From: Armatimonadota bacterium | Lineage (GTDB): Bacteria; Armatimonadota; Hebobacteria; CAIYQO01 | Length of the DNA: 54,857 bases | NCBI GenBank assembly: GCA_029553475.1 | Contig: JAKPKV010000094.1 | Coordinates: 1 to 54,857 of the forward strand | Reading direction: 5' to 3' | Part shown: in pieces, positions 1,124 through 37,965 of the stretch | How the letters are laid out: each line of letters starts with the position of its first letter | Numbering within the stretch: position 1 is the first letter of the stretch | The notes under the pieces: model-generated | What the model saw: only the letters and a program-made list of their open reading frames with translations | The model's database searches: none | Told to the model about the DNA's origin: nothing | Program-made: the position numbers and the translations under genes

Positions 1124-2089
1124 GTGGGACTGCAGCCCGATTCCTTTGACATTAACGACTTGTTGCGGCAAGCACGTGCCTTTGCCGCCCAGGGGCAGGC
1201 AGCCAGCACTCGCAAAGCGTATGCGGCGGACTGGGGGCATTTCGAGAACTGGTGTCATGCCGGGAACTGGCCTGCGTTGCCGGCGGCCTATGAAGTCGTC
1301 GCGCTGTATCTCACAGCGCTGACGCGTGAGGGGAAGAAACTCAATACCCTTACCCGGCGTTTAGCGGCCATCGCGTATACCCACCGTCAGGCTGCGCTGC
1401 CCTCTCCCACCAATACCCCGGTCGTCGAGGCGGTCCTCACCGGTATCCGTCGCACCTATGGATCACGCCCCCACGGCGTGGCAGCCCTCCTCACCGACGA
1501 TATCCGTGCGATGGTGCGCACGTTGCCGGATTCGCTGCTCGGTATACGTGACCGCGCCGTGATTCTCTTGGGATATGCCGTGGCATTTCGGCGGAGCGAG
1601 TTGGTCCAACTGGACGTGACCGATTTGGCACCGCGCGTGGAAGGCTTGGCCGTGACGCTCCGGCGCAGTAAAACCGACCAGGAAGGCCACGGGCGGTTGG
1701 TCGGCATCCCGTTTGGCACCTACCCTGACACCTGTCCGGTACAGGCGGTGCTGTTCTGGTTGGAGGCAGCACAGATTACTGCAGGGGCGGTCTTCCGTGG
1801 GATGAACCGGCATGGGCCGTGCATTTCCACCCGGCTCTCCGGACGGGCGGTCGCCACCATCATCAAGCGGGCGGCGGCCGCAGCGGGGCTCGATAGTACG
1901 CAGTATACCCCCCACTCACTACGCGCCGGCTATTGCACCACTGCGGCGCGGGCCGGGGTGGAAGAGCGCGTGCTCATGCAGCAGACCGGGCACACCTGTG
2001 TGGCCACCCTGCGCCGGTATGTGCGCGCCGGGTCGTTGTTTTTAGAAAACTCGGCGGTGGCGTTGGGGTTATACCGTTTGGTACTGTAA
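1124..2089 (+). CDS. Tyrosine recombinase/integrase
   Basis: A 321-residue phage-integrase-family protein. The N-terminal part (about 10-105) is a SAM-like core-binding domain (STRKAYAADWGHFENWC). The catalytic domain shows the whole active site: Arg in AFRRSEL, Lys in RRSKTDQEG, His and Arg in TPHSLRAGY, a second His in QQTGHT, and the nucleophilic Tyr in LRRYVRAG. It cuts and rejoins DNA through a 3'-phosphotyrosine. The start is GTG; length is normal. Its 3' end overlaps the convergent radical SAM gene by 21 bases. It may mobilise the island to its right, but no att core was recognised, so its target is unknown. Confidence 0.9.
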   Translation: MGLQPDSFDINDLLRQARAFAAQGQAASTRKAYAADWGHFENWCHAGNWPALPAAYEVVALYLTALTREGKKLNTLTRRLAAIAYTHRQAALPSPTNTPVVEAVLTGIRRTYGSRPHGVAALLTDDIRAMVRTLPDSLLGIRDRAVILLGYAVAFRRSELVQLDVTDLAPRVEGLAVTLRRSKTDQEGHGRLVGIPFGTYPDTCPVQAVLFWLEAAQITAGAVFRGMNRHGPCISTRLSGRAVATIIKRAAAAAGLDSTQYTPHSLRAGYCTTAARAGVEERVLMQQTGHTCVATLRRYVRAGSLFLENSAVALGLYRLVL

Positions 2090-3106
2090 ACAATCCGGGT
2101 CACGATGCACCAGGTTGAACTGTCCGTATTGAAACACGCGTTGTGCTGGGCAACCGCCGTGGCAGGTGTCCTCATACGCACAGTCGCGGCACTCACTTGG
2201 TAGCTTTCGCGCATACTCCCTCGCCTCCCTGAAGAATGCCGACCGCGTCCACACGGTTTCCAACCCGACGGCGAATACGTTCGCAAACGCGTCATCCGGG
2301 AAGACGAATCCTTTGTAGGCATCGCACGGGTAGGCGGTGCCGTCAGGGGCGATCAGCATCCGGTCGATCCCGGCACGGCAAGCTGGCACATCAACTCTCT
2401 GCAGTATACTGTAGGGACTGCCAAGGCGAATGCTGACCTGGTTGTCCGACGCCAAGCTCGTCACCATTGCACGCAGAGCCAGGTGTTGCTGACGGTTGAG
2501 TGCCAGGGAATGGCCGATACCCCGGCCATGCGGAACAAATCGCAGCAGGGAAACCCTCCGCACCCTCAGCGTCCGCATCATGTCGATCAAGGCAGGGAGC
2601 GACTCGAAATTAATTTGTGTTGGGACACAGTGGAGGGTGACATCAATGCCGACGAATTGGCATGCCTGGATAGCCGCAATCGTCGCTTCGAAGCTCCCTG
2701 GTACCTCCGTGAACGCATCATGGATGGCGGCCTCTCCAGCCTGCAGGCTGAACACCAGTGATCGCGTTCGGTGCCGAAGTTCCTCCGCGAAAGCGAAATC
2801 GAGTGGTGAAATACTTCTGTCACGAGTTACACGTGTCCCAGTGGTGTATATCGTCGTGGCGAGGTTCTCGGCGCGGATCACGTCAAGAATCGCTAACAAC
2901 TCAGGGTGCTCCAGCGGTTCTCCCCCCGATATTTCGACCTGCTTGCCATCCAGGAGCACGAACTCACGCATCACCTCCGCCACCTGCGAGGGCGACACGA
3001 AGAGTGTTCGGTCGCGTGAGGACTCCGATGAGCAGTGCACGCATCGCATGGGACACCGATCGAGGATCTCAAGTTTGAGATCGGTCAGCTGATTTGTCAC
3101 AGCCAT
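2069..3106 (-). CDS. Radical SAM/SPASM enzyme
   Basis: 345 residues. The N-terminal CX3CX2C (Cys18, Cys22, Cys25, in DRCPMRCVHC) binds the [4Fe-4S] cluster that cleaves S-adenosylmethionine, and ISGGEP follows near residue 60. The C-terminal third has SPASM-type cysteines (YPCDAYKG, ECRDCAYEDTCHGGC, DPDCLQY) for auxiliary clusters. SPASM enzymes often modify peptides or proteins, but the substrate cannot be read from the sequence. It is the last gene of the leftward block, 218 bases after the kinase gene, with its own weak promoter candidate. In phages with hypermodified thymidine, radical SAM enzymes take part in base tailoring; a similar role here is inference. Confidence 0.85.
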   Translation of the reverse strand: MAVTNQLTDLKLEILDRCPMRCVHCSSESSRDRTLFVSPSQVAEVMREFVLLDGKQVEISGGEPLEHPELLAILDVIRAENLATTIYTTGTRVTRDRSISPLDFAFAEELRHRTRSLVFSLQAGEAAIHDAFTEVPGSFEATIAAIQACQFVGIDVTLHCVPTQINFESLPALIDMMRTLRVRRVSLLRFVPHGRGIGHSLALNRQQHLALRAMVTSLASDNQVSIRLGSPYSILQRVDVPACRAGIDRMLIAPDGTAYPCDAYKGFVFPDDAFANVFAVGLETVWTRSAFFREAREYARKLPSECRDCAYEDTCHGGCPAQRVFQYGQFNLVHRDPDCLQYQTV

Positions 3107-3166: not shown

Positions 3167-3194
3167 ATTGTACCGAAATGATGAGTGCGCTCAT
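3167..3194 (-). promoter_or_regulatory. Weak promoter candidate and palindrome ahead of the radical SAM gene
   Basis: On the minus strand a TACAAT -10 sits at 3167-3172, with no convincing -35. The palindrome-like ATGAGTGCGCTCAT at 3181-3194 covers the -35 area and could bind a repressor. The rest of 3107-3324 holds no other feature I can support. Confidence 0.3.
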
Positions 3195-3324
3195 TCGTCA
3201 TACTGCTCACACTCTTCGCTCACAGTGGCACCACCGTGTGCGCCTTACCGAAGACACCCAGACCATGGCATACAACCCTACCGGATTGTTTTTGTCCCCT
3301 TCGCTGGATTCTGTCGCTTCACCC

Positions 3325-5037
3325 TCACCCTTCAGCCACGCGGACATTAAGGTTCCACTTCGGTGGAAACCAATACACAACCGGATCAAGGCAAGGACGA
3401 AAATGCTGTTTTATCCGTTTGCGATCGCCAACACCCTCCGCTTCTGGGTGTGCGACGCGCGCATACTTATCCACCTCACAAAACAGGTTTTGGCAATCAA
3501 TCAACTGCAGGGGACGTCCCCAAAGCGAGCGAAACTCCAAGCCGAGTCGCGCAAATTCCACATCCTGCCGTTCGGCCATCATGAGGATGATGTCTGCCTC
3601 GCTCATCCCACCTGTAGTGCGGAAGCACTTGCGGATTCCACTTCGGGCACCTGGTCCGGGAACCGTGAACTCCATTTCACTGAAGTCGGTCACCTCACTG
3701 TAGTTGAGGTCTGTGACGTACTGGTAAGCGAGAAAATCGCCGATCATCGGGTACGAACGGAGGAGGTCAAAGGCCTGGCGCATCCGCGGCACCTCCGCCA
3801 GGCGCTGGGGCACCTCGTCTGCGAGCATCGTCTCAATCAGCCGCAAGTAGTTGCGGTGCTTGACCGGGTCGCCGAACGTATGCCCTCCTGTTGGCATCAT
3901 GTAGGCGGCGGAAAAGATCGACCGGCCAGCGCTCATCGCTCCCTCTAATATCGTGGCATATCGCTCGAACGAATAACCGGCATAGGATATTTCGCCGACA
4001 GCCTGTTTCAGCAACTCCCAGGTTTCGACACGGTTGAAGACCTTGAATACGAGTACCCGAAAGAACACCTCGTCTGGCGACTGATCGCCTTGATAGATCA
4101 CTTCGCGAATAAGGTATTGGCTCACGCGGTCCGCAGCCCGGTAGGCGTTGGTGAATTTGAATGTTGCCAGGATCGGATCGGTCGTCCATGGCTGGGGTGC
4201 TCCCTCACAACGTCGAAAAAATATCTGCTGACGTTCTGCAGCGAAGCGCCAATATGTGTCGAACACTTCGGTCGGAACTGCCGGTGCGATACTGAAGAAG
4301 GTGAGTTGTTTTTCGTGGGCGGACAGCACGGCTGCCTGCTGACTTCTATGGCCGTCATGGGTATGAGTGCGCCTATTGCGATGCCCGGAATGACCGGCAC
4401 CTCGAGAAGGTGTCTCGCCATCGCGGAGAAATGGCTCCAGCTTAGCGATAATCTCGCCAATCTTTTCTTCTAACGTCCCGCAGTTATGGATCGTGTAAAC
4501 CTGAGAGCGTTTGGCTTCGCATTCGGCGACCGCATCATACAGGCGGCGCAGTGCGAGAAAGCGCTCGGGCACCTCGTTCGGTCGCCATGGTTTATCGGCG
4601 CGTATCAGAAAGACCGCCGCTGGATGAATATCAGCCCAGCACACGTCTTCGAGCTCGACCAGAGCGTCTAGAATGTCAGTGGGGATACCCGCGTATGCCC
4701 CATACACCCACGTCGACCACCAAAACCGATCCAGTACGACATGATGACCAGCTGCCAGTGCCGGGCGGATGCACCGCGCGATGGCGTCGATATGCGCTGC
4801 GACATGAAGGGTTTGCAAGCTGGCAGGATCAATTGAAGCGATCTGATACTGGTCATGATAGTGATGGTGCAGCGTGTAGATGTGCTCGCCCAGCGTCCCG
4901 GGCTCACGACCAGGGAAGGAAAACACCCCACATGGAATTCCACGATGACGCAGACGTGTGACCACACCAGACACGAGCGTGGTCTTCCCGACTCCGTCAG
5001 GCCCTTCGAAAACAATCAGTTTTCCGTTCTCCGACAT
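3325..5037 (-). CDS. Thymidylate-kinase-like domain fused to a 5-hmdU DNA kinase-type helical domain
   Basis: 570 residues in two parts. Residues 1 to about 205 are a P-loop nucleotide kinase of the dTMP-kinase type, with Walker A GPDGVGKTT and the DR motif in VVLDRFWWS. After a His/Arg-rich linker, residues about 230-570 match the helical domain found with 5-hydroxymethyl-dU DNA kinases and alpha-glutamyl/putrescinyl-thymine pyrophosphorylases (FFRRCEGAPQPWT, FKFTNAYRAADRVSQY, then YSFERY and TDLNYS). In phages that family phosphorylates 5-hydroxymethyluracil in DNA as a step to hypermodified thymine. Assignment is from memory of the family. The gene begins 31 bases after the TS-like gene and is very likely in the same operon. 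A nucleotide or nucleoside substrate is likely; the exact one is unknown. Confidence 0.75.
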   Translation of the reverse strand: MSENGKLIVFEGPDGVGKTTLVSGVVTRLRHRGIPCGVFSFPGREPGTLGEHIYTLHHHYHDQYQIASIDPASLQTLHVAAHIDAIARCIRPALAAGHHVVLDRFWWSTWVYGAYAGIPTDILDALVELEDVCWADIHPAAVFLIRADKPWRPNEVPERFLALRRLYDAVAECEAKRSQVYTIHNCGTLEEKIGEIIAKLEPFLRDGETPSRGAGHSGHRNRRTHTHDGHRSQQAAVLSAHEKQLTFFSIAPAVPTEVFDTYWRFAAERQQIFFRRCEGAPQPWTTDPILATFKFTNAYRAADRVSQYLIREVIYQGDQSPDEVFFRVLVFKVFNRVETWELLKQAVGEISYAGYSFERYATILEGAMSAGRSIFSAAYMMPTGGHTFGDPVKHRNYLRLIETMLADEVPQRLAEVPRMRQAFDLLRSYPMIGDFLAYQYVTDLNYSEVTDFSEMEFTVPGPGARSGIRKCFRTTGGMSEADIILMMAERQDVEFARLGLEFRSLWGRPLQLIDCQNLFCEVDKYARVAHPEAEGVGDRKRIKQHFRPCLDPVVYWFPPKWNLNVRVAEG

Positions 5038-5068
5038 GACGATACCCTTTCACCAGTTATCCGCATGG

Positions 5069-5846
5069 TTATTCAGTGCCACGCTCCACAAGCGTTGACA
5101 GCTGGGCCGATAACTGGCTAAGATCGCCTTTCCCAATAGCGCCGAGTTGAGCCACGCTGGCGACGCAGTTCATCCGCACTAAGTCCATATCCATCGCCTG
5201 CGCCATGAACTTCCCAAGGCGGCAGAGGCCGACATAGTTGCCATACGCGCGCTGGAAGAAGTGCTGGATTGCGTAAAAGCCCGTGACAACCAGCCCGGCC
5301 CCCGGCACGACCTGGAACGCCACCTGCTGCAGGCAAGGGAATCCCCGCTGGCGTTGGGCTGTGATGTCCTTTGCGGGATCGAGAATCGATGCCTGTAGTG
5401 CACTATGCCGATGGATGCCCTGCGCGTAAATATCGAGGATGTGCTCAAGCTGGTTCAGCCGGTTCTCACCGTAGGCGATCAGACGTTTGAAGTACAGGCC
5501 GTACCGATTCGCTGGACACACCTTCTTCATATACGGGAGCACCTGCGCATATCGTCGGTATAGCGTTTCACGGCTCTTGTCAGGATTCCATAAAGATAGT
5601 GGGAAGATGGTGTTGGCCACGGTGCGATGCAGCGGCTTCCCGCACAGCGTAAGTGCCTGATCCAAGGCGTGCTGGATATGGAGATCCTCATACTCGGTAA
5701 GCGTACGTCCCGACAAACCGCACACCGAAACCGCGAGCGGCGATATGCAGGTGACGCCAGGTGCATGCACAGCCAGGAGCGCGCGCCCACGCCCGCGACA
5801 GGTTCGTATCCTCAATGTAATGGGGGCTACTCGTCGTCATCATCAT
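5069..5846 (-). CDS. Thymidylate-synthase-like protein, N-terminus frameshifted
   Basis: The main frame (5069 to about 5785) has thymidylate synthase/dCMP-hydroxymethylase family features: RYGLYFKRLIAYG, NQLEHI, a candidate nucleophilic Cys in GFPCLQQVAF, and FFQRAYGNYVGL. The family transfers a one-carbon unit to C5 of a pyrimidine nucleotide. The natural start is probably the ATG at 5846, which overlaps the ImmA stop as ATGA. That frame reads MMMTTSSPHYIEDTNLSRAW and joins the main frame only if one base is added at the GCGCGC stretch near 5780. This is a recent mutation or a sequence error. A later in-frame start may still give a shortened product. With the next kinase it suggests synthesis of a modified deoxyuridine nucleotide. 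Confidence 0.7.
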
Positions 5847-6691
5847 CCTCCCAATGCCGGTCGGCCGACAAATCCACGTTTCGCAATTCGCACCACCGCA
5901 GACCAGGAGCCGTCACGTGCCATCAGGCGTTCAGAGCCGGCGCGCACCCCACGCAGAACCAGCCGATGCTCATCCTCCCGGTCAAGCATGAGACATGTGC
6001 CTTCATATGCCACCGTCGGCGGCAGGAGAATGCGGTCTCCCGTCTGCACATCAATCGCGCGACCAGCCCACAGGTGGTCAACGACAAAGAGATCATCATC
6101 ACAATCGTCACGCAGGAGCGCTGACCGAATCTGCTTCGGCTTGTGGCGCAGCAATACCTTGGCTACGTGCTCCGGGAGCACCCCCAACGCATAACACATA
6201 TGACTGATGATCGTGGTATATCCCACCCCAAACCACCCCGCCACGATGAAGGCCTGTTCCGGCCTGCACGCTTTCGGCTCCCACCCGCGGGAACGAAAGG
6301 CATGCGTGAGAGCGGTTGGCGGCATGAGCACCATCCCCGCGAAGCAATCGGCCTGAAATTCTTCAGGGTCGAAGGGGGCATTCGGCATACGGTCAGGCAG
6401 CAGTTCATCCACACAATGGCCATGTCCAAAGACATGGTGCCCGAGTTCGTGCGCGCACGTGTATGCTTGCCGTCCTGCCGGCCGTAATGACGACAGCAGG
6501 ATATGCGGCGCCTCGGTACGGATGTAGACACCCTCGAGTTTGGGAAGTTCGACCATTCGCACCTCGACACCAAGGTACTCGGCCACGTCATAGATGCAGA
6601 CCGCCTGTGCGCCACCCACGCGAGCGCGCACACGGACGTGCAAGGCTTTCTGTGTGCTGATCCGCGCCAGTTCAGCCCTACGCATATTCAT
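5843..6691 (-). CDS. ImmA/IrrE-family metallopeptidase
   Basis: 282 residues. The zinc motif HELGHH stands near residue 82 in YTCAHELGHHVFGHG, and the downstream EEFQADCFAGMVLMPP supplies the third-ligand region, as in COG2856/ImmA. Proteins of this family cleave a partner repressor and so switch on mobile elements or stress genes. The start overlaps the stop of the XRE regulator gene by one base (TGATG), which points to a functional pair. A C-terminal half of about 150 residues has no recognised domain. It lies between the regulator and the TS-like gene. Confidence 0.88.
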   Translation of the reverse strand: MNMRRAELARISTQKALHVRVRARVGGAQAVCIYDVAEYLGVEVRMVELPKLEGVYIRTEAPHILLSSLRPAGRQAYTCAHELGHHVFGHGHCVDELLPDRMPNAPFDPEEFQADCFAGMVLMPPTALTHAFRSRGWEPKACRPEQAFIVAGWFGVGYTTIISHMCYALGVLPEHVAKVLLRHKPKQIRSALLRDDCDDDLFVVDHLWAGRAIDVQTGDRILLPPTVAYEGTCLMLDREDEHRLVLRGVRAGSERLMARDGSWSAVVRIAKRGFVGRPALGG

Positions 6692-7038
6692 CAGCGTTCC
6701 CCATCCGTTTTGAGCGTCGCCAGCAGCGATAACAGGCGCTCTAGATCGTCTGGCGAGAGTTTTGCCAATTCACGCGCGGCCAGTTCAATACGAGGGTCCT
6801 GTGGCGCATCGCCCGCTGCTGCCTCGCCAGCGAGCCATGAGACGCTGACGCCGTAAATCCTCGCCAGTTCAGTCAACTCCTCGGCACTCACCTTGCGTCG
6901 TCCGGCTTCCATCTCGGAGACCGATGGCCGGTGCAGATGCAGCAATCGAGCGACCTGTCCTTGCGAAAGCCCTGCCTGCTCGCGAGCCACACGAAGGCGT
7001 TCGGCAATCTGTGCGTGGCTTTGATTCGAAGAACCCAT
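6691..7038 (-). CDS. XRE-family transcriptional regulator
   Basis: 115 residues with an N-terminal helix-turn-helix (about 10-65: RLRVAREQAGLSQGQVARLL, then RPSVSEMEAGRRKVSAEEL). The C-terminal tail with LSPDDLERLLSLLATL probably dimerises. It starts three bases after the acyl-carrier-like gene and overlaps the ImmA gene. The likely operator is the palindrome at 7335-7351 just downstream of the operon's internal promoter, so it probably represses its own transcription until ImmA cleaves it. That circuit is inferred from gene order. Confidence 0.9.
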   Translation of the reverse strand: MGSSNQSHAQIAERLRVAREQAGLSQGQVARLLHLHRPSVSEMEAGRRKVSAEELTELARIYGVSVSWLAGEAAAGDAPQDPRIELAARELAKLSPDDLERLLSLLATLKTDGER

Positions 7039-7041
7039 CGG

Positions 7042-7323
7042 CTACATCCCCTCCGTTTCTACCACGCCACATAGCCGACCGACAATTTCGTGCACAGATA
7101 ACCGTCGTCCGCTATCAGTGAACAAGTGGCCGAGTTGCTCAGCGTTGATGCCGCACATATCGGTGATGCGCACCGTCACTTCCATAGCATTCAGGCTATC
7201 GAACTCGTACAAGTCGTCGAGCGGCACGGTTTCGTCGTCAATGTCCTGGTCAGGACGGCCACTCAAGGTTTGGATCTCTTGGATGCCTTCGATCAAGGCA
7301 TCGCGAATCTGTGCTGCAGTCAT
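7042..7323 (-). CDS. Acyl-carrier-protein-like protein
   Basis: 93 residues with the four-helix carrier pattern and a DSL motif (YEFDSLNAMEVTVRI, about residues 40-54) whose Ser could carry 4'-phosphopantetheine. The family holds acyl or aminoacyl groups as thioesters. No ketosynthase, adenylation enzyme or phosphopantetheinyl transferase is nearby, so its cargo is unknown. It is the first gene after the strong internal promoter at 7354-7382 and is followed at once by the regulator gene. The match rests on a short motif and general pattern. Confidence 0.65.
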   Translation of the reverse strand: MTAAQIRDALIEGIQEIQTLSGRPDQDIDDETVPLDDLYEFDSLNAMEVTVRITDMCGINAEQLGHLFTDSGRRLSVHEIVGRLCGVVETEGM

Positions 7324-7334
7324 ATCAACCCCTA

Positions 7335-7382
7335 TCTTACGCTCGGTAAGAATATATTACCACGGCATCTGTATCGTGTCAA
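7335..7382 (-). promoter_or_regulatory. Sigma70-type promoter with palindromic operator inside the conjugation/nucleotide operon
   Basis: On the minus strand TTGACA (7377-7382) and TAATAT (7354-7359) are separated by exactly 17 bases. The perfect palindrome TCTTAC-GCTCG-GTAAGA occupies 7335-7351, right at the expected transcription start. The promoter serves the acyl-carrier, XRE, ImmA, TS-like and kinase genes. The XRE protein encoded two genes downstream is the natural candidate to bind the palindrome. Confidence 0.75.
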
Positions 7383-7417: not shown

Positions 7418-8776
7418 TTATCCCGCACCCGAGGAAGGTGCATGCCGACTACTACCGTTCAGCTTCTGCCATACCACCGGATCCGGACAACCGCCACAAT
7501 TCGCGCGTGGCACCCGATCAAAGATCATCGGCCGCAAGTTCGCAGATTTGAATGACAGGATTGTTGTGTTGGCATTCGGCGGGTCGCCAGGAATTACGAG
7601 CTTCACTAAATCGGCGAGTGCCAGCACACCTGCCGCTAACGACAAAAACGGCAACGCCCCTGTCAATGGCGCCGCTCCCGCGCTCTCCTGCTCTTTCAGC
7701 ACACCCTGGGCACAACGCGGTGCCGCCGCCGGTTGAGGGAATCGGCATACCAGGCAGTCGTCCACCAATGGGATGTGCCGTCCGGCATACGCATCCCATT
7801 GCGAGCCTGTCGAGCCGTGGATCATAACCGGCGGGTAGTTTGCCTGCACGGCTGCACGTACCCCATGCTCATTTGCCACCGGAATCACGACGTCAAAGTT
7901 CTGCAGACTCAATTCAGGGCCGATGACATCGTTGAACCACTTGCCGATATAGCGGGACGGGACGCTGGCAGCACACAGGTAGTTATGGACCACCTCGGAC
8001 TTGGGCACGCCGATGTGCTCGATGAAAAAGAGCGGCACACGGTTCAGATTACTATAATCCACTTGATCAGGATTGATGATGCACAGGTCGGAGAAGTTGA
8101 GATTCAGGAGCGGAAGCAGGTAGGCTATCGATGCGCCGACTGCGCCTGCGCCAATCAGCAGAACACGGCCGATGTCACTTTTTTGCAGATCCGGTCCATC
8201 TATGACCGCGCCTCCGTGGTGCAAATTCCACAGTGACAGTATCGCTGTCTCACACACGTCATCGTGGCGTAATGCATGTCGTAACATATAACTGGCGCCC
8301 ATACATGCTGCCAGCGCTGGTCCAAGCGGATTTATCGAGTCATCGTCTTTGAGCTTCATGTCATCTGAGTGCCTAAGCTCGGACAGCCATCCACGGCCGC
8401 GAATACAGGAGATTGGCAGTGTTGGATGTCTGCCGAGATGAATGCGGACAGATGCGGCTACCGGCTCACATTGATCCTGGAAGATGCCATACGGATCAGC
8501 TCGTTGCGCTAGCGCGAGAGCGTTATCGACAAGCTGGTTTGTTCCCCAGCAATACAACGCTGTATGCAACGGCACATCGGGCGCTACTAGAGTTATCCGC
8601 TGACACCAGCGCGCGCTCATATTGACCAATAGGAGGAATGCAAGCTGGCCAGCAAAAGTCTGAGCCTCAACCTCATCAATACTGATCCCCAGGGACACTG
8701 CATGGAGACCGGTCGGATCCAGCCATTCGGCCGTACGGGCATCACGCTTTGTGTAGAACTCCTCTGCACTAATCAT
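7418..8776 (-). CDS. E1-like ThiF-family adenylating enzyme
   Basis: 452 residues. About 190 residues of N-terminal extension with no recognised domain precede a Rossmann ThiF/MoeB/E1 domain. That domain has the ATP loop LIGAGAVGAS (about 208) and the DYSNLNR motif (about 240-246). CLVC at 341-344 and CGGC at 427-430 form a probable structural zinc site. E1 enzymes adenylate the C-terminal glycine of a ubiquitin-like protein and pass it on as a thioester. The gene overlaps the JAB gene by four bases (ATGA) and shares an operon with a Ubl ending in GGGV. Which Cys takes the Ubl is not clear. Sulfur-carrier activation is the alternative role. Confidence 0.85.
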   Translation of the reverse strand: MISAEEFYTKRDARTAEWLDPTGLHAVSLGISIDEVEAQTFAGQLAFLLLVNMSARWCQRITLVAPDVPLHTALYCWGTNQLVDNALALAQRADPYGIFQDQCEPVAASVRIHLGRHPTLPISCIRGRGWLSELRHSDDMKLKDDDSINPLGPALAACMGASYMLRHALRHDDVCETAILSLWNLHHGGAVIDGPDLQKSDIGRVLLIGAGAVGASIAYLLPLLNLNFSDLCIINPDQVDYSNLNRVPLFFIEHIGVPKSEVVHNYLCAASVPSRYIGKWFNDVIGPELSLQNFDVVIPVANEHGVRAAVQANYPPVMIHGSTGSQWDAYAGRHIPLVDDCLVCRFPQPAAAPRCAQGVLKEQESAGAAPLTGALPFLSLAAGVLALADLVKLVIPGDPPNANTTILSFKSANLRPMIFDRVPRANCGGCPDPVVWQKLNGSSRHAPSSGAG

Positions 8777-9312
8777 CGTTCATCTCCTCGCATGTCGATC
8801 CAGTCGGGAATTATCGAGACTCGTGTGGCAATTGCACGCCCATCCAACCTGCGGAATTCACCTTGGGTATAGCAGTGAATGCCGCATTGTGTGAGTGGTA
8901 ATATGCCGTGAAGACCATAATGCGGCACAACGACCGACCAATGGCCATCCGCACGGACAATGGCCTCTTCGTCATCGATCTCTGAATGTGAGACTCCACG
9001 CCCAGGATGGCAATGGACTTGTGCCACGATGTGTAGACGGCACGCCATCAATGCCGCCATGACATCGGCATGATCGTCAGCATCGGTGCGGTAGAATCCA
9101 GGCCCTGTGACGCATTGCGGCGCAATCACCGTGACGCCAACCCGTACGGTCGGCAGGATGAATCCGGCAATATACAGCACATTCTCACGCAGGACACCAC
9201 CACTGCAGAGCGGGATACGTCGCTCCACGGTGTTAACAACCGATGATGTGAGCACCAGTCGGGGGCCATCAACGTCCCTATCCCAGTGCAGTGGCTTTGA
9301 ACGTGATCGCAT
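8773..9312 (-). CDS. JAB/JAMM (Mov34/MPN) metallopeptidase
   Basis: 179 residues with the JAMM zinc signature HxHx7SxxD: His100, His102, Ser110 and Asp113 in VHCHPGRGVSHSEIDDE. Family members remove ubiquitin-like proteins from targets or trim their C-terminus to expose GG; here that could be the final Val of the Ubl. The usual catalytic Glu two residues before GG of the first strand is not obvious, since the matching place reads CSGGVLRE, so activity should be tested. It overlaps the E2-like gene by one base and the E1 gene by four, which shows tight translational coupling. Confidence 0.88.
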   Translation of the reverse strand: MRSRSKPLHWDRDVDGPRLVLTSSVVNTVERRIPLCSGGVLRENVLYIAGFILPTVRVGVTVIAPQCVTGPGFYRTDADDHADVMAALMACRLHIVAQVHCHPGRGVSHSEIDDEEAIVRADGHWSVVVPHYGLHGILPLTQCGIHCYTQGEFRRLDGRAIATRVSIIPDWIDMRGDER

Positions 9313-9774
9313 CAGGCATTTTTCCTTCCTTTATATTCAGAATCCTCGAGAAGGTCGGCAATCAGCGCTAGCACCAACCCCAGTTCACGCCGCATCGGGT
9401 CGCCTTGTTTCCAGTCACCGAGCTGCCAGTCACCATGTGGCCCACCAAGATCACGATACGCACGCCGGCTCCAGCGCGCACAGATGAAGTTGCCGGAGTG
9501 GAAGTAGTTTTTCCCTCCTGTTGGGAAGCAGCGGCTCGTATTCCGTTCTCCAGACTCGGGATGCACCGCGTCTATCAGGGGAGGTAACTCGGGATAATGG
9601 TCGAAACGGAATTCAAAGACGTAGATTTCCTGGTCCGGGGCTTGAGATGGCTGCCCGAAGACACAAGGCATCACGATCCCACTGGAGATCCCAGCCGCGC
9701 CGCCGTGCTGATGGCGCGGCCCGCAGGAGCTCCTGGTCGACCGTAATGCGGCTAACCTCCGGATGCACCGCCAT
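9312..9774 (-). CDS. Candidate E2-like conjugating protein, interrupted by a frameshift
   Basis: The C-terminal frame (9674-9312) reads IYVFEFRFDHYPELPP and later FHSGNFICARWSRRAY, like prokaryotic E2-fold proteins in which the Cys after the HxGxxIC-type stretch is catalytic. The natural start appears to be the ATG at 9774, one base after the Ubl stop codon. From there another frame reads MAVHPEVSRITVDQELLRAA up to about residue 40, and the two join if one base changes between about 9635 and 9674. So an intact gene would encode about 153 residues. Either the gene is newly broken or one base is misread. The E2 assignment comes from pattern and position between Ubl and JAB genes. Confidence 0.55.
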
Positions 9775-9775
9775 G

Positions 9776-10042
9776 TTAGACCCCCCCACCCTGCTGGGGG
9801 ATGAGCATCAGGACGACGCCATCCTCCAGATGGTACGACACCAGGGGCCGGTCCGGCTGCAGGATCTCACGGGTCACCGCGTTGCGCAATTCGTAGTCAA
9901 CTGCCGCGAGGCCGAAGTGGTTCAGGACGGCCGTGATCACGTCAGCGACCTTGGCTGTCTTCTCGAAGTCGTTCGCCCTATAGATGAGCAAGAAAGGCTT
10001 CGTGAAGCATTTGCAGGATTGGGGCTTGTCATGGAGTACCAC
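9776..10042 (-). CDS. Ubiquitin-like (beta-grasp) protein ending in GGGV
   Basis: 88 residues from a GTG start, or about 71 from an in-frame TTG. The core LLIYRANDFEKTAKVADVI through YHLEDGVVLMLIP follows the beta-grasp pattern, and the chain ends QQGGGV. A di-glycine end, hidden by one residue, is what a JAMM peptidase would trim and an E1 activate. It heads the operon, and its stop is one base from the E2-like start. No good ribosome site precedes the GTG, so the start is uncertain. It could act as a protein tag or as a sulfur carrier. Confidence 0.7.
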   Translation of the reverse strand: MVLHDKPQSCKCFTKPFLLIYRANDFEKTAKVADVITAVLNHFGLAAVDYELRNAVTREILQPDRPLVSYHLEDGVVLMLIPQQGGGV

Positions 10043-10343: not shown

Positions 10344-11085
10344 TTGCTTGGGAAAACAGAGAGCCTACTACTTCGCGCTGGAATCACCCAAGCACCAGTG
10401 GATTTGGGTATCATTGCGGATGAGCTTTACCTTTACGTACAAGAAGTTCCCCTCGATGGCATTGATGGATGCATTGTTCATAACGAGGACGTGGGCGTCA
10501 TTCTCATTAACAGCTTGGTTGAACATGAATACCGGAGACGCTTCACATTAGCGCATGAAATTGGGCATTTCATGCTGCCAGCACACATATGCTGATAGCG
10601 ATGAGAACATGGGGGATTACCGAACAATCGAAGAGAAGCAAGCCAACGTCTTCGCATCGATGTTGTTGATGCCACAGTCATTATTGCCGCAAAAGTTCGG
10701 ACACGTCCAGTCCTCCTTCGAACAGGCTGAAATGCTGAAGCAGGGATTCAAGGTGTCGTTGGCCGCTGCATTGAGACGGATGGTTCGTCTCTCTAACTGG
10801 GCGTGCGCTGTCGTCGTGACGAAAGACGGGCATCTCCAGTGGAGCGCCAGGTCAGATGAATTTGACGGATGGATCGCTGCACAGCCACATCCATTAAGCG
10901 GCGCTTCACGATTGCTGGAATCACCTGAAGGTAGCAGTCTTATCGACGAAGTTCCCGAAGACATGTGGCTCGACTCATCTTATCAGCGTGGAGCTTCTTC
11001 AGAGTGCGTGCTCCGAGAGCATAGCAGGCGTATGAGGAACGGTTATGTCTACACCCTTCTAACGCAACCTTGTGAGGATGCCTGA
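10344..11085 (+). pseudogene. Second ImmA/IrrE-family peptidase gene, frameshifted
   Basis: The first frame (10344-10595) reads RAGITQAPVDLGIIADEL, then RRRFTLAHEIGHFMLPAHIC with the zinc motif HEIGH, and stops. The second frame (about 10590-11085) goes on with DYRTIEEKQANVFASMLLMP, the usual continuation of the same fold. One base change near 10593 separates them. A stop codon just before the TTG at 10344 suggests that the N-terminus is damaged too. Base composition is lower in GC than the genes to the right. It lies divergent to the Ubl operon and may once have controlled it. Confidence 0.75.
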
Positions 11086-18209: not shown

Positions 18210-18285
18210 TGGCTGCCCGGGGAGGATTCGAACCTCCAACCTTAGGATCCAAAGTCCTCTGCGCTGCCAGTTGCGCCACCGGGCA
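18210..18285 (-). tRNA. tRNA-Gln(TTG)
   Basis: The minus strand folds as a full cloverleaf. The acceptor TGCCCGG pairs with CCGGGCA, discriminator G, and CCA is encoded. The D arm is GCGC/GCGC, the anticodon loop CTTTGGA has anticodon TTG (Gln, codon CAA), and the T arm is GGAGG-TTCGAAT-CCTCC. The first anticodon-stem pair is G-A, a mismatch. The 3' end faces the accessory region to the left, the usual side for integration. Confidence 0.95.
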
Positions 18286-21559: not shown

Positions 21560-22015
21560 GCAAAAGGGGGCCGCACGAGGCGTTGCGGGCGCACCACGCG
21601 ACTCGCACCTCGCGGGCGGGCTGGAGTGATGAGTTCCGGATCGGTTTGCTGGGCACCGTGTGCGGGAGCCTCACGCCGCGCGGGATGCAGGTGCGCCACC
21701 TGCTGGAATTGTCACGGGACTGGTATGGGGTAGCGGTCGCCGTGGTGCCGAAAAGCGGCGTCCTAGCAGCCCAGTGGATGGGCGGATTAAGCGGGGAGGC
21801 GTTTCTGCCGGTGCTCCGGGATTGGCACGCAGCCGAGAGGGATGTCCTGGTCTGGGATGGCTTGCTAGGCCATCGAGGGCTGCAAGCCCTCAAGACGCCG
21901 CTGCCGACCATCCTGCAACCAGCCGCCTCGCCGGAGTGAAATCCGACCGCGCGTCCGGATTGCCTACCAGTGCCCGTGGCACACCGGCATCAGGCCCACC
22001 CATTTCTTCACGTCG
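21560..22015 (+). mobile_element. IS630-family transposase C-terminal remnant
   Basis: The frame ending at 21939 has the IS630 DDE core: SDEFRIGLLGTV (first Asp), then ERDVLVWDGLLGHRG (second Asp) and LQPAASPE (the usual PPYSPELNP), after which TGA breaks it. The N-terminal HTH half is missing; IS5 sequence stands in its place, so the two remnants seem to be joined by insertion or recombination. It abuts the truncated gene at 22028. Confidence 0.65.
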
Positions 22016-37257: not shown

Positions 37258-37965
37258 CTACAGCAACCCGAGCTCGGCGAACTTCGCGTCGGCAAAGTCG
37301 CCCCAGCCGGCGTTGGCCTGCGGGTTGGCGGGACTGGGATGGAGCAGGCGGTCAATAGGGATAGCGAGTCCGGCGAGGGCGGCGAGCAGGCGCGCTTCGG
37401 CGAAGCCGCCGATGCCGATGGCGACCCGGGGCCGCATGATCGCGACGATGGCGCGGAGGGCGCGGTCGCAGGCGGCGTACAGGGCGGCGGTTTCCGCCGC
37501 CGGCAGTTTATCGGGCGTGCGGTTCTTCCCGCTCTCTTCCATGAAGACCAGCGGGCAGTAATTCGCCACGAAGCAGCGGGCGAAGAACGCCTCCGGCGTG
37601 CCCCAGCGGTCGCGCGCCCACCCCCACAGCCGCATGCCGCTCACCTCGCGCCGCGTGCTCGCAAAGCCCTCCACGGGCCGTTTGGGGTGTTCGCGCGCCG
37701 GCTTGCCCACCGGCGCCTCGATGCCCATCCACTCGCGCACCATCACCGGGTCGCCGAATGGCACCCCCGTCTGCGCCATGCCAAATGGGCCGGGATTCAT
37801 CCCCAAGAGCAGCACCTCGCGCGTGCCCTGTCCGAATCGCCGCAGGTATTGCTCGTGCGGCGCCCACGCGTAATCCAGCGGGTTATAGATGTAGGCGGTG
37901 GGCGCCGCGAAGGGAAGCGCGTCCACGTCAGCCGCCAGCCGTTTCGTGATGGCGATAATCTCCAT
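37258..37965 (-). CDS. SMUG1-type uracil-DNA glycosylase
   Basis: 235 residues. LLLGMNPGPFGMAQTGVPFG is the SMUG1 active-site signature and LLHPSPANPQAN the DNA-intercalating loop; MRLWGWARDRWG also fits the family. SMUG1 removes uracil and 5-hydroxymethyluracil from DNA. It starts eight bases after the U32 gene in a small leftward operon. It is of note in a genome whose mobile island carries enzymes that could make modified deoxyuridine. Confidence 0.88.
   Translation of the reverse strand: MEIIAITKRLAADVDALPFAAPTAYIYNPLDYAWAPHEQYLRRFGQGTREVLLLGMNPGPFGMAQTGVPFGDPVMVREWMGIEAPVGKPAREHPKRPVEGFASTRREVSGMRLWGWARDRWGTPEAFFARCFVANYCPLVFMEESGKNRTPDKLPAAETAALYAACDRALRAIVAIMRPRVAIGIGGFAEARLLAALAGLAIPIDRLLHPSPANPQANAGWGDFADAKFAELGLL

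Follow-up and report, generated by a model that had tools for sequence, protein, structure and literature searches.

A mobile, putatively damage-inducible operon that may make and phosphorylate a C5-modified deoxyuridine: its radical-SAM variant in an Armatimonadota genome

Why should a bacterium that can already make thymidine monophosphate (dTMP) by other means keep a thymidylate synthase (TS)-like gene beside a thymidylate kinase that is joined to a domain of phage DNA kinases? The question is raised by contig JAKPKV010000094.1 of an Armatimonadota bacterium (assembly GCA_029553475.1), analysed here over its positions 1 to 54,857 (the window), where a sequence-only reading had singled out the two genes between 3,325 and 5,846 and proposed that they make and phosphorylate a C5-substituted deoxyuridine. 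ThyA is missing from the host genome, which does encode ThyX and, besides the window kinase, two further Tmk; the pair is therefore not needed for dTMP and is not housekeeping. Both genes are real, yet they form the core of a multi-gene, apparently inducible operon and not a pair. The window most probably carries one variant, with a radical S-adenosylmethionine (radical-SAM) enzyme, of an operon that is widespread, moves horizontally and is damage-inducible, and whose enzymes would make and phosphorylate a C5-modified deoxyuridine, most likely against phages (probability about 0.58).

The kinase fusion and the TS-like enzyme

The kinase gene (3325..5037, minus strand) encodes 570 amino acids. 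Its thymidylate-kinase-fold domain (residues 1-205; 4423..5037) matches PF02223 over residues 10-149 (52.9 bits; cut-off 27), retains a DRF motif and a P-loop, GPDGVGKTT, that is intact, and was placed by a fold search with its model on Aquifex TMK (Z 23.6); the superfamily threshold is passed, and that of the Tmk equivalog TIGR00041 is not (58.9 versus 83.25 bits). Residues 256-534 (3436..4272) match the helical family HMUDK_hel (PF18723) at 382.3 bits (E 1.8e-114; cut-off 25) over model positions 1-280 of 281. Both the fusion of a dTMP kinase to a helical domain of the 5-hydroxymethyldeoxyuridine (5-hmdU) kinase type and the intact P-loop, called beforehand from the letters, are thus borne out, the C-terminal half being a complete copy of the domain.

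A P-loop kinase and HMUDK_hel in one chain is the arrangement of the SP10-type 5-hmdU DNA kinase, and among viral proteins Foldseek ranked the SP10 enzyme (F8WQ30) first as a structural match to the full chain (E 2.5e-19), with both halves aligned. The same two-part plan is found in an open reading frame (ORF) of phage SBSphiC, which adjoins a ThyA-like gene and served as comparator for the kinase half of the SP10-type phage enzymes. In the fold search of the PDB with the whole protein, matches to the kinase half filled the hit list; for the HMUDK_hel half, a sequence comparison with the PDB found no solved relative. Against helix-hairpin-helix (HhH) DNA glycosylases, HMUDK_hel reached an hhalign probability of 1.4%, no better than unrelated controls; its YPxIGxFLAYQ and GPG motifs resemble motifs of those glycosylases.

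The TS-like gene (5069..5840, minus strand) encodes a protein for which, as for each of 37 relatives, a Pfam search returned no match, and PF00303 (ThyA) was unmatched by all 37 sequences at E 1e-3. The NCBIfam model TIGR03283 (archaeal-type thymidylate synthase) matches 37 of 37 relatives, with the window protein at 37.7 bits, far under the cut-off of 174.6. A TS fold is seen in an AlphaFold model built from the 37 homologues (pLDDT, the predicted local distance difference test, 94.5; pTM, the predicted template-modelling score, 0.92), the closest structure being the cytidine monophosphate (CMP) hydroxymethylase MilA (Z 15.6; 3.2 A over 197 residues), followed by ThyA enzymes at Z about 14-15. 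The PC motif with its candidate nucleophile, noticed at the outset, is confirmed by conservation: C151 is invariant (37/37) and P150 is kept in 36. Equally fixed are the uracil-type N183, a Gly-Asn pair, Y98, R101, D140 and Y171. Such a Gly-Asn pair reads uracil in thymidylate synthases. An hhalign comparison of the TS-like proteins with ThyA-like proteins encoded in the same loci (90.6%; E 1.3e-6) paired both Cys and both Asn, and Arg or Lys stood at the column where the ThyA-like proteins hold an invariant Gly. The TS-like proteins are thus a divergent clade of the TS superfamily, beyond the reach of Pfam models: the fold, the PC nucleophile and the core are shared with TIGR03283 and MilA, whereas the sub-threshold score, the missing Pfam match and the loss of an Asp (below) set the clade apart. 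The identity first proposed for this protein accordingly stands on fold, Cys and Asn, without a Pfam TS match.

In the window the gene cannot be read straight from 5846. The N-terminus conserved in relatives (MTTSSPHYIEDTNLSRAWARA, from ATG 5840; general pattern ...IEExNLSxAWxRA...), about 20 codons long, sits in a different frame from the remaining gene, an ORF of 248 amino acids (5069..5815) that is open only from TTG 5815, and the break falls at about 5778-5790 inside a GC-dinucleotide run. Most relatives are read continuously; the break is not conserved and hence not programmed. It may be an assembly error or real decay, either of which fits; other genomes have unbroken copies, and intact operons are present, for example, on plasmid p3 of Rhizobium rosettiformans and in Sphingomonas gilva. 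The island contains another frame break, which affects an M78 peptidase at 10344-11085 (plus strand), split into 10344-10595 and 10555-11085.

Operon composition and the carrier protein

A scan of GTDB genomes gathered 62 relatives of the kinase protein, and operon make-up was counted by ORF clustering and profile scans. The count covers 63 loci with HMUDK_hel, drawn from some ten phyla, and a TS-like gene is present in 40 of them. These 40 loci harbour an M78 peptidase (36), a helix-turn-helix (HTH) repressor (35), a small carrier protein (29), a linked or fused thymidylate-kinase domain (24), MazG-MazG_C (17), a classical ThyA-like protein (16), a DCD-like protein (12), AcpS (11) and a radical-SAM/SPASM protein (7); bacterial HMUDK_hel is often a stand-alone protein. 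Gene order runs from the carrier protein through HTH, M78, TS-like, an optional DCD and HMUDK_hel, with or without its kinase, to ThyA-like, radical-SAM or MazG and AcpS genes. ThyA-like and radical-SAM genes co-occur in 0 of 7 cases, which is modest evidence given shared ancestry.

The last, variant-specific place in the window is taken by a radical-SAM/SPASM protein (2069..3106, minus strand; PF04055 and PF13186), separated from the kinase by a 218-bp gap. Relatives lie downstream of HMUDK_hel in six other loci and on a prophage-like contig (L074), and the window operon is of the radical-SAM type. The distance matrices of the TS-like and HMUDK_hel proteins correlate at r 0.81, a value reached by none of 2000 permutations; the two proteins co-evolve. 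The TS-like tree mixes phyla, with 15 label changes for 11 groups. A search of the host genome for a MazG_C partner, made without a positive control, found none. In Paenibacillus koleovorans (L037), two TS-like genes (3184-3912 and 4641-5384) stand in one operon devoid of the carrier gene.

The small acyl/peptidyl carrier protein (ACP; 7042..7323, minus strand; 93 aa) bears an FDSL attachment motif and scores 25.1 bits against PF00550 (cut-off 20.8). All 27 relatives align at its phosphopantetheine-attachment Ser, and some operons encode their own phosphopantetheinyl transferase, including an annotated acpS on a Rhizobium plasmid. These two features make it very likely that the carrier, once loaded, is functional.

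Control of the operon

Behind the ACP gene lie a CapH-like XRE-type repressor (6691..7038, minus strand; PF13560; PADLOC capH, E 6.8e-17) and a CapP-like M78 (ImmA/IrrE) metallopeptidase with the motif HELGH (5843..6691, minus strand; PF06114, 46.3 bits; PADLOC capP, E 2.3e-14). An HTH repressor and an HExxH-bearing M78 peptidase beside an immune-type operon define the CapH+CapP pair, which governs adjacent immune operons and in which CapP, activated by single-stranded DNA (ssDNA), cleaves CapH (PMC13373217). As in CBASS and other immune operons, the pair adjoins the genes that it would govern; unlike there, the regulators are placed inside the operon and go together with a palindrome, GTAAG-N5-CTTAC, that recurs across phyla.

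This palindrome or its mirror CTTAC-N5-GTAAG is found upstream of 31 of 43 operons, the window included, in many phyla, often as three half-sites at five-base spacing, and such palindromes are nearly confined to operon-upstream regions within 736 kb of loci. The window has a sole copy, even when one mismatch is allowed (0.22 expected by chance): CTTAC-N5-GTAAG at 7336..7350 (minus strand), a putative operator upstream of the ACP gene and behind a promoter-like site, TTGACA-17-TAATAT with TG before the -10 (7354..7382, minus strand), which directly precedes that gene. Promoter-like sites are no commoner in the region than by chance, and this one is among the two top scorers. The palindrome is absent from the ACP-less operons examined and from the TIR/Nmad2 context described below, and a palindrome-only scan of viral contigs gave two matches, neither with any operon gene. 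The HTH protein would be its likely binder, a pairing that sequence match alone does not prove.

Distribution and mobility

Distribution is sporadic: neither gene was found in genomes of the host's own genus and family. Copies of the operon occur on plasmids, including conjugative ones with the complete gene set, and on viral-type contigs, among them L074, where an operon of the window's radical-SAM type lies beside genes of phage-structural type. In the window a tyrosine recombinase/integrase (1124..2089, plus strand; PF00589, 64.8 bits) adjoins the operon, which points to a mobile island.

Relation to phage genes and known systems

HMUDK_hel was found in 493 phage records, and in phages Det7, Montesquieu, LysYB1 and SBSphiC it is clustered with ThyA-like, kinase and MazG-like genes. 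The TS-like protein was found in none of 50,697 phage records, and a pattern search recovered relatives from only 3 of 2.9 million viral contigs. The phage 5-hmdU DNA kinase phosphorylates the hydroxymethyl group of 5-hmdU in DNA (PMC7653180).

A link of such enzymes to defence has precedent. In the DefensePredictor study (Science 2026, PMC13092281), phage plating fell in E. coli carrying units whose domains include a 5-hydroxymethyluracil kinase and a thymidylate synthase, and further units with aGPT-Pplase, MazG, MazG-C, dUTPase and NMAD domains are predicted, with credit to a bioinformatic study of 2015; the study offers no mechanism for these units, and its text mentions no carrier protein. 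The E. coli units and the window operon share enzyme types, and for the former anti-phage activity was shown. A blastn search of E. coli genomes with two relatives found no homologue, which says little at such divergence.

A second HMUDK_hel system (L028, L030-L032, L051, L053 and L054) combines TIR-SLOG_LD2, a ThsB-type TIR, Nmad2 and MazG-MazG_C. Such TIR/SLOG/Nmad2 'nucleotide-centric' conflict systems have HMUDK_hel and MazG-MazG_C in common with the TS-like operon, whereas their pure form is without the TS-like gene, the carrier protein and the palindromic operator; three loci (L003, L013 and L040) combine parts of both. No published report of the ACP, the TS-like clade, the radical-SAM variant or the operator was found, and an earlier bioinformatic description of parts of the operon is possible. 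Since DefensePredictor already ties such enzymes to defence, what is new here is not the defence idea but the operon class, with its ACP, CapH/CapP pair, divergent TS clade, alternative last gene and operator.

Proposed mechanism and alternative explanations

A full HMUDK_hel domain, a TS fold that retains the catalytic Cys and the uracil-type Asn, and the structural resemblance to the SP10 enzyme make the production and phosphorylation of a C5-substituted deoxyuridine, as first suggested, a fair reading, with the cofactor and the transferred group left uncertain. Together with a damage switch and mobility, such enzymes are best explained as an inducible defence. The CapH-like repressor would keep the promoter shut at the GTAAG-N5-CTTAC operator until ssDNA from infection or damage activates the CapP-like peptidase and the repressor is cut. 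The TS-like enzyme would then use its Cys to transfer a one-carbon unit, probably hydroxymethyl, onto C5 of deoxyuridine monophosphate (dUMP), and the thymidylate-kinase domain would phosphorylate the product, either at the 5' phosphate for entry into the deoxynucleoside triphosphate pool or, as in SP10, at the base hydroxyl. The base so modified, probably within DNA, would be recognised by HMUDK_hel. A further group may be supplied or installed by the radical-SAM enzyme, in whose place other operons have ThyA-like or MazG enzymes, and by the carrier protein, which would be loaded by AcpS, an enzyme encoded by some relatives. The altered nucleotide or base would halt phage DNA replication or mark phage DNA.

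Several observations weigh against this scheme. In ThyA, the Asp of the RSND motif contacts folate and the Arg contacts phosphate. In aligned columns of the TS-like clade the Asp is kept in 1 of 37 and the Arg in 8 of 37; with the folate-contact Asp lost in 36, the cofactor and the transferred group become uncertain, and the enzyme may not be a folate-dependent hydroxymethylase at all. As judged from fold and alignment, the folate and nucleotide pocket named beforehand as a check keeps its Cys and Asn, with the folate contact in doubt. The kinase half falls in the thymidylate-kinase family, to which the P-loop half of the SP10-type phage protein appears not to belong: in SBSphiC that half was unmatched by the hidden Markov model of the bacterial TMK-type kinase, although Foldseek aligned both halves of the SP10 enzyme. 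Phosphorylation of a base in DNA should therefore not be assumed. As the two-part plan is common with the phage and the kinase halves are apparently of different families, the bacterial protein may act as a kinase on DNA bases, or else on nucleotides, with a partner domain that reads DNA. No enzyme for ACP loading or acyl transfer is encoded within the window operon, and the domains of the DefensePredictor units (TS, dNMP kinase, 5-hmdU kinase and NMAD) agree less well with the ACP operon than with the TIR/Nmad2 context, of which L006 is an example. Owing to its frame break, the TS-like copy in the window may itself be inactive or misassembled.

An extension of the defence scheme, doubtful at present, is that the phosphopantetheine carrier delivers a group to C5 of a deoxyuridine that the divergent TS has made and the kinase/HMUDK_hel protein has activated, resulting in a damage-induced hypermodification of phage DNA or nucleotides. 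If true, carrier-delivered C5 hypermodification by a host would be a phage strategy reversed. More generally, phages hypermodify thymidine to evade host nucleases, and a bacterial operon that places the enzyme types of those phages under a damage switch suggests the opposite use by hosts. Gene order, the operator, the invariant Cys and Asn of the divergent TS clade, and the carrier protein offer direct handles on the nucleotide, the carried group and the target.

Among other explanations, the operon could hypermodify the DNA of its host or carrier element against nucleases, like the thymidine-hypermodifying phages. The clusters of HMUDK_hel, ThyA-like, kinase and MazG-like genes in phages and the presence of the operon on plasmids and a phage-like contig would agree with it; a protective mark, however, should be constant, whereas most operons carry a repressor of cleavable type and a conserved operator, no nuclease partner is conserved, and the rarity of TS-like relatives in phage records and viral contigs speaks against it as well, so that such self-protection seems unlikely. 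A second proposal keeps the target and drops the synthesis: the kinase-HMUDK_hel protein would poison phage DNA by phosphorylating the 5-hmdU already in it, and the remaining enzymes would adjust the nucleotide pool. Such an enzyme could meet known targets in phages whose bases derive from hmdU, and among viral proteins it is a 5-hmdU DNA kinase that the full-length protein matches best in structure, yet the co-inheritance of the TS-like enzyme (r 0.81) points to a system that produces the substrate itself, and we regard this proposal as quite unlikely.

It is very unlikely that the operon serves secondary metabolism in the manner of the MilA pathway, with a modified nucleoside or nucleotide assembled on the carrier protein: MilA is indeed the closest fold of the TS-like protein, and pathways of this kind typically include an ACP, AcpS and a radical-SAM enzyme, but genes for export, resistance, adenylation and other tailoring are not conserved among the clusters found, and both CapH/CapP-type control and mobile carriers are typical of defence. 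An ordinary supply of dTMP through an extra thymidylate synthase and dTMP kinase, which the PGAP labels on plasmids ('thymidylate synthase' and 'nucleotide kinase domain-containing protein') would imply, is extremely improbable in a host with its own ThyX and Tmk enzymes, since the HMUDK_hel half, the operator and the regulators would be superfluous and the active-site residues of the TS are altered.

Neighbouring genes

Opposite the integrase, the operon is flanked by a Bil-like operon (7418-10042, minus strand) comprising a Ubl-like gene (9776-10042), a possible E2 (9312-9674), a JAB (8773-9312; PADLOC BilC, 1.2e-11) and an E1 (7418-8776; PADLOC BilD, 4.5e-15). These genes were considered as part of the operon and rejected, as they occur in no other locus; they are treated as a separate system. 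The SMUG1-type glycosylase that the sequence-only reading had connected with the pair is a protein of the uracil-DNA glycosylase superfamily (37258..37965, minus strand; PF03167, 37.2 bits). It lies 32 kb from the operon and was likewise rejected as a part of it, no relative being near the operon in any other locus. ARAGORN placed a tRNA-Ala(agc) at 21807-21900 (minus strand) that Rfam did not confirm, the only tRNA so confirmed being tRNA-Gln at 18210-18285.

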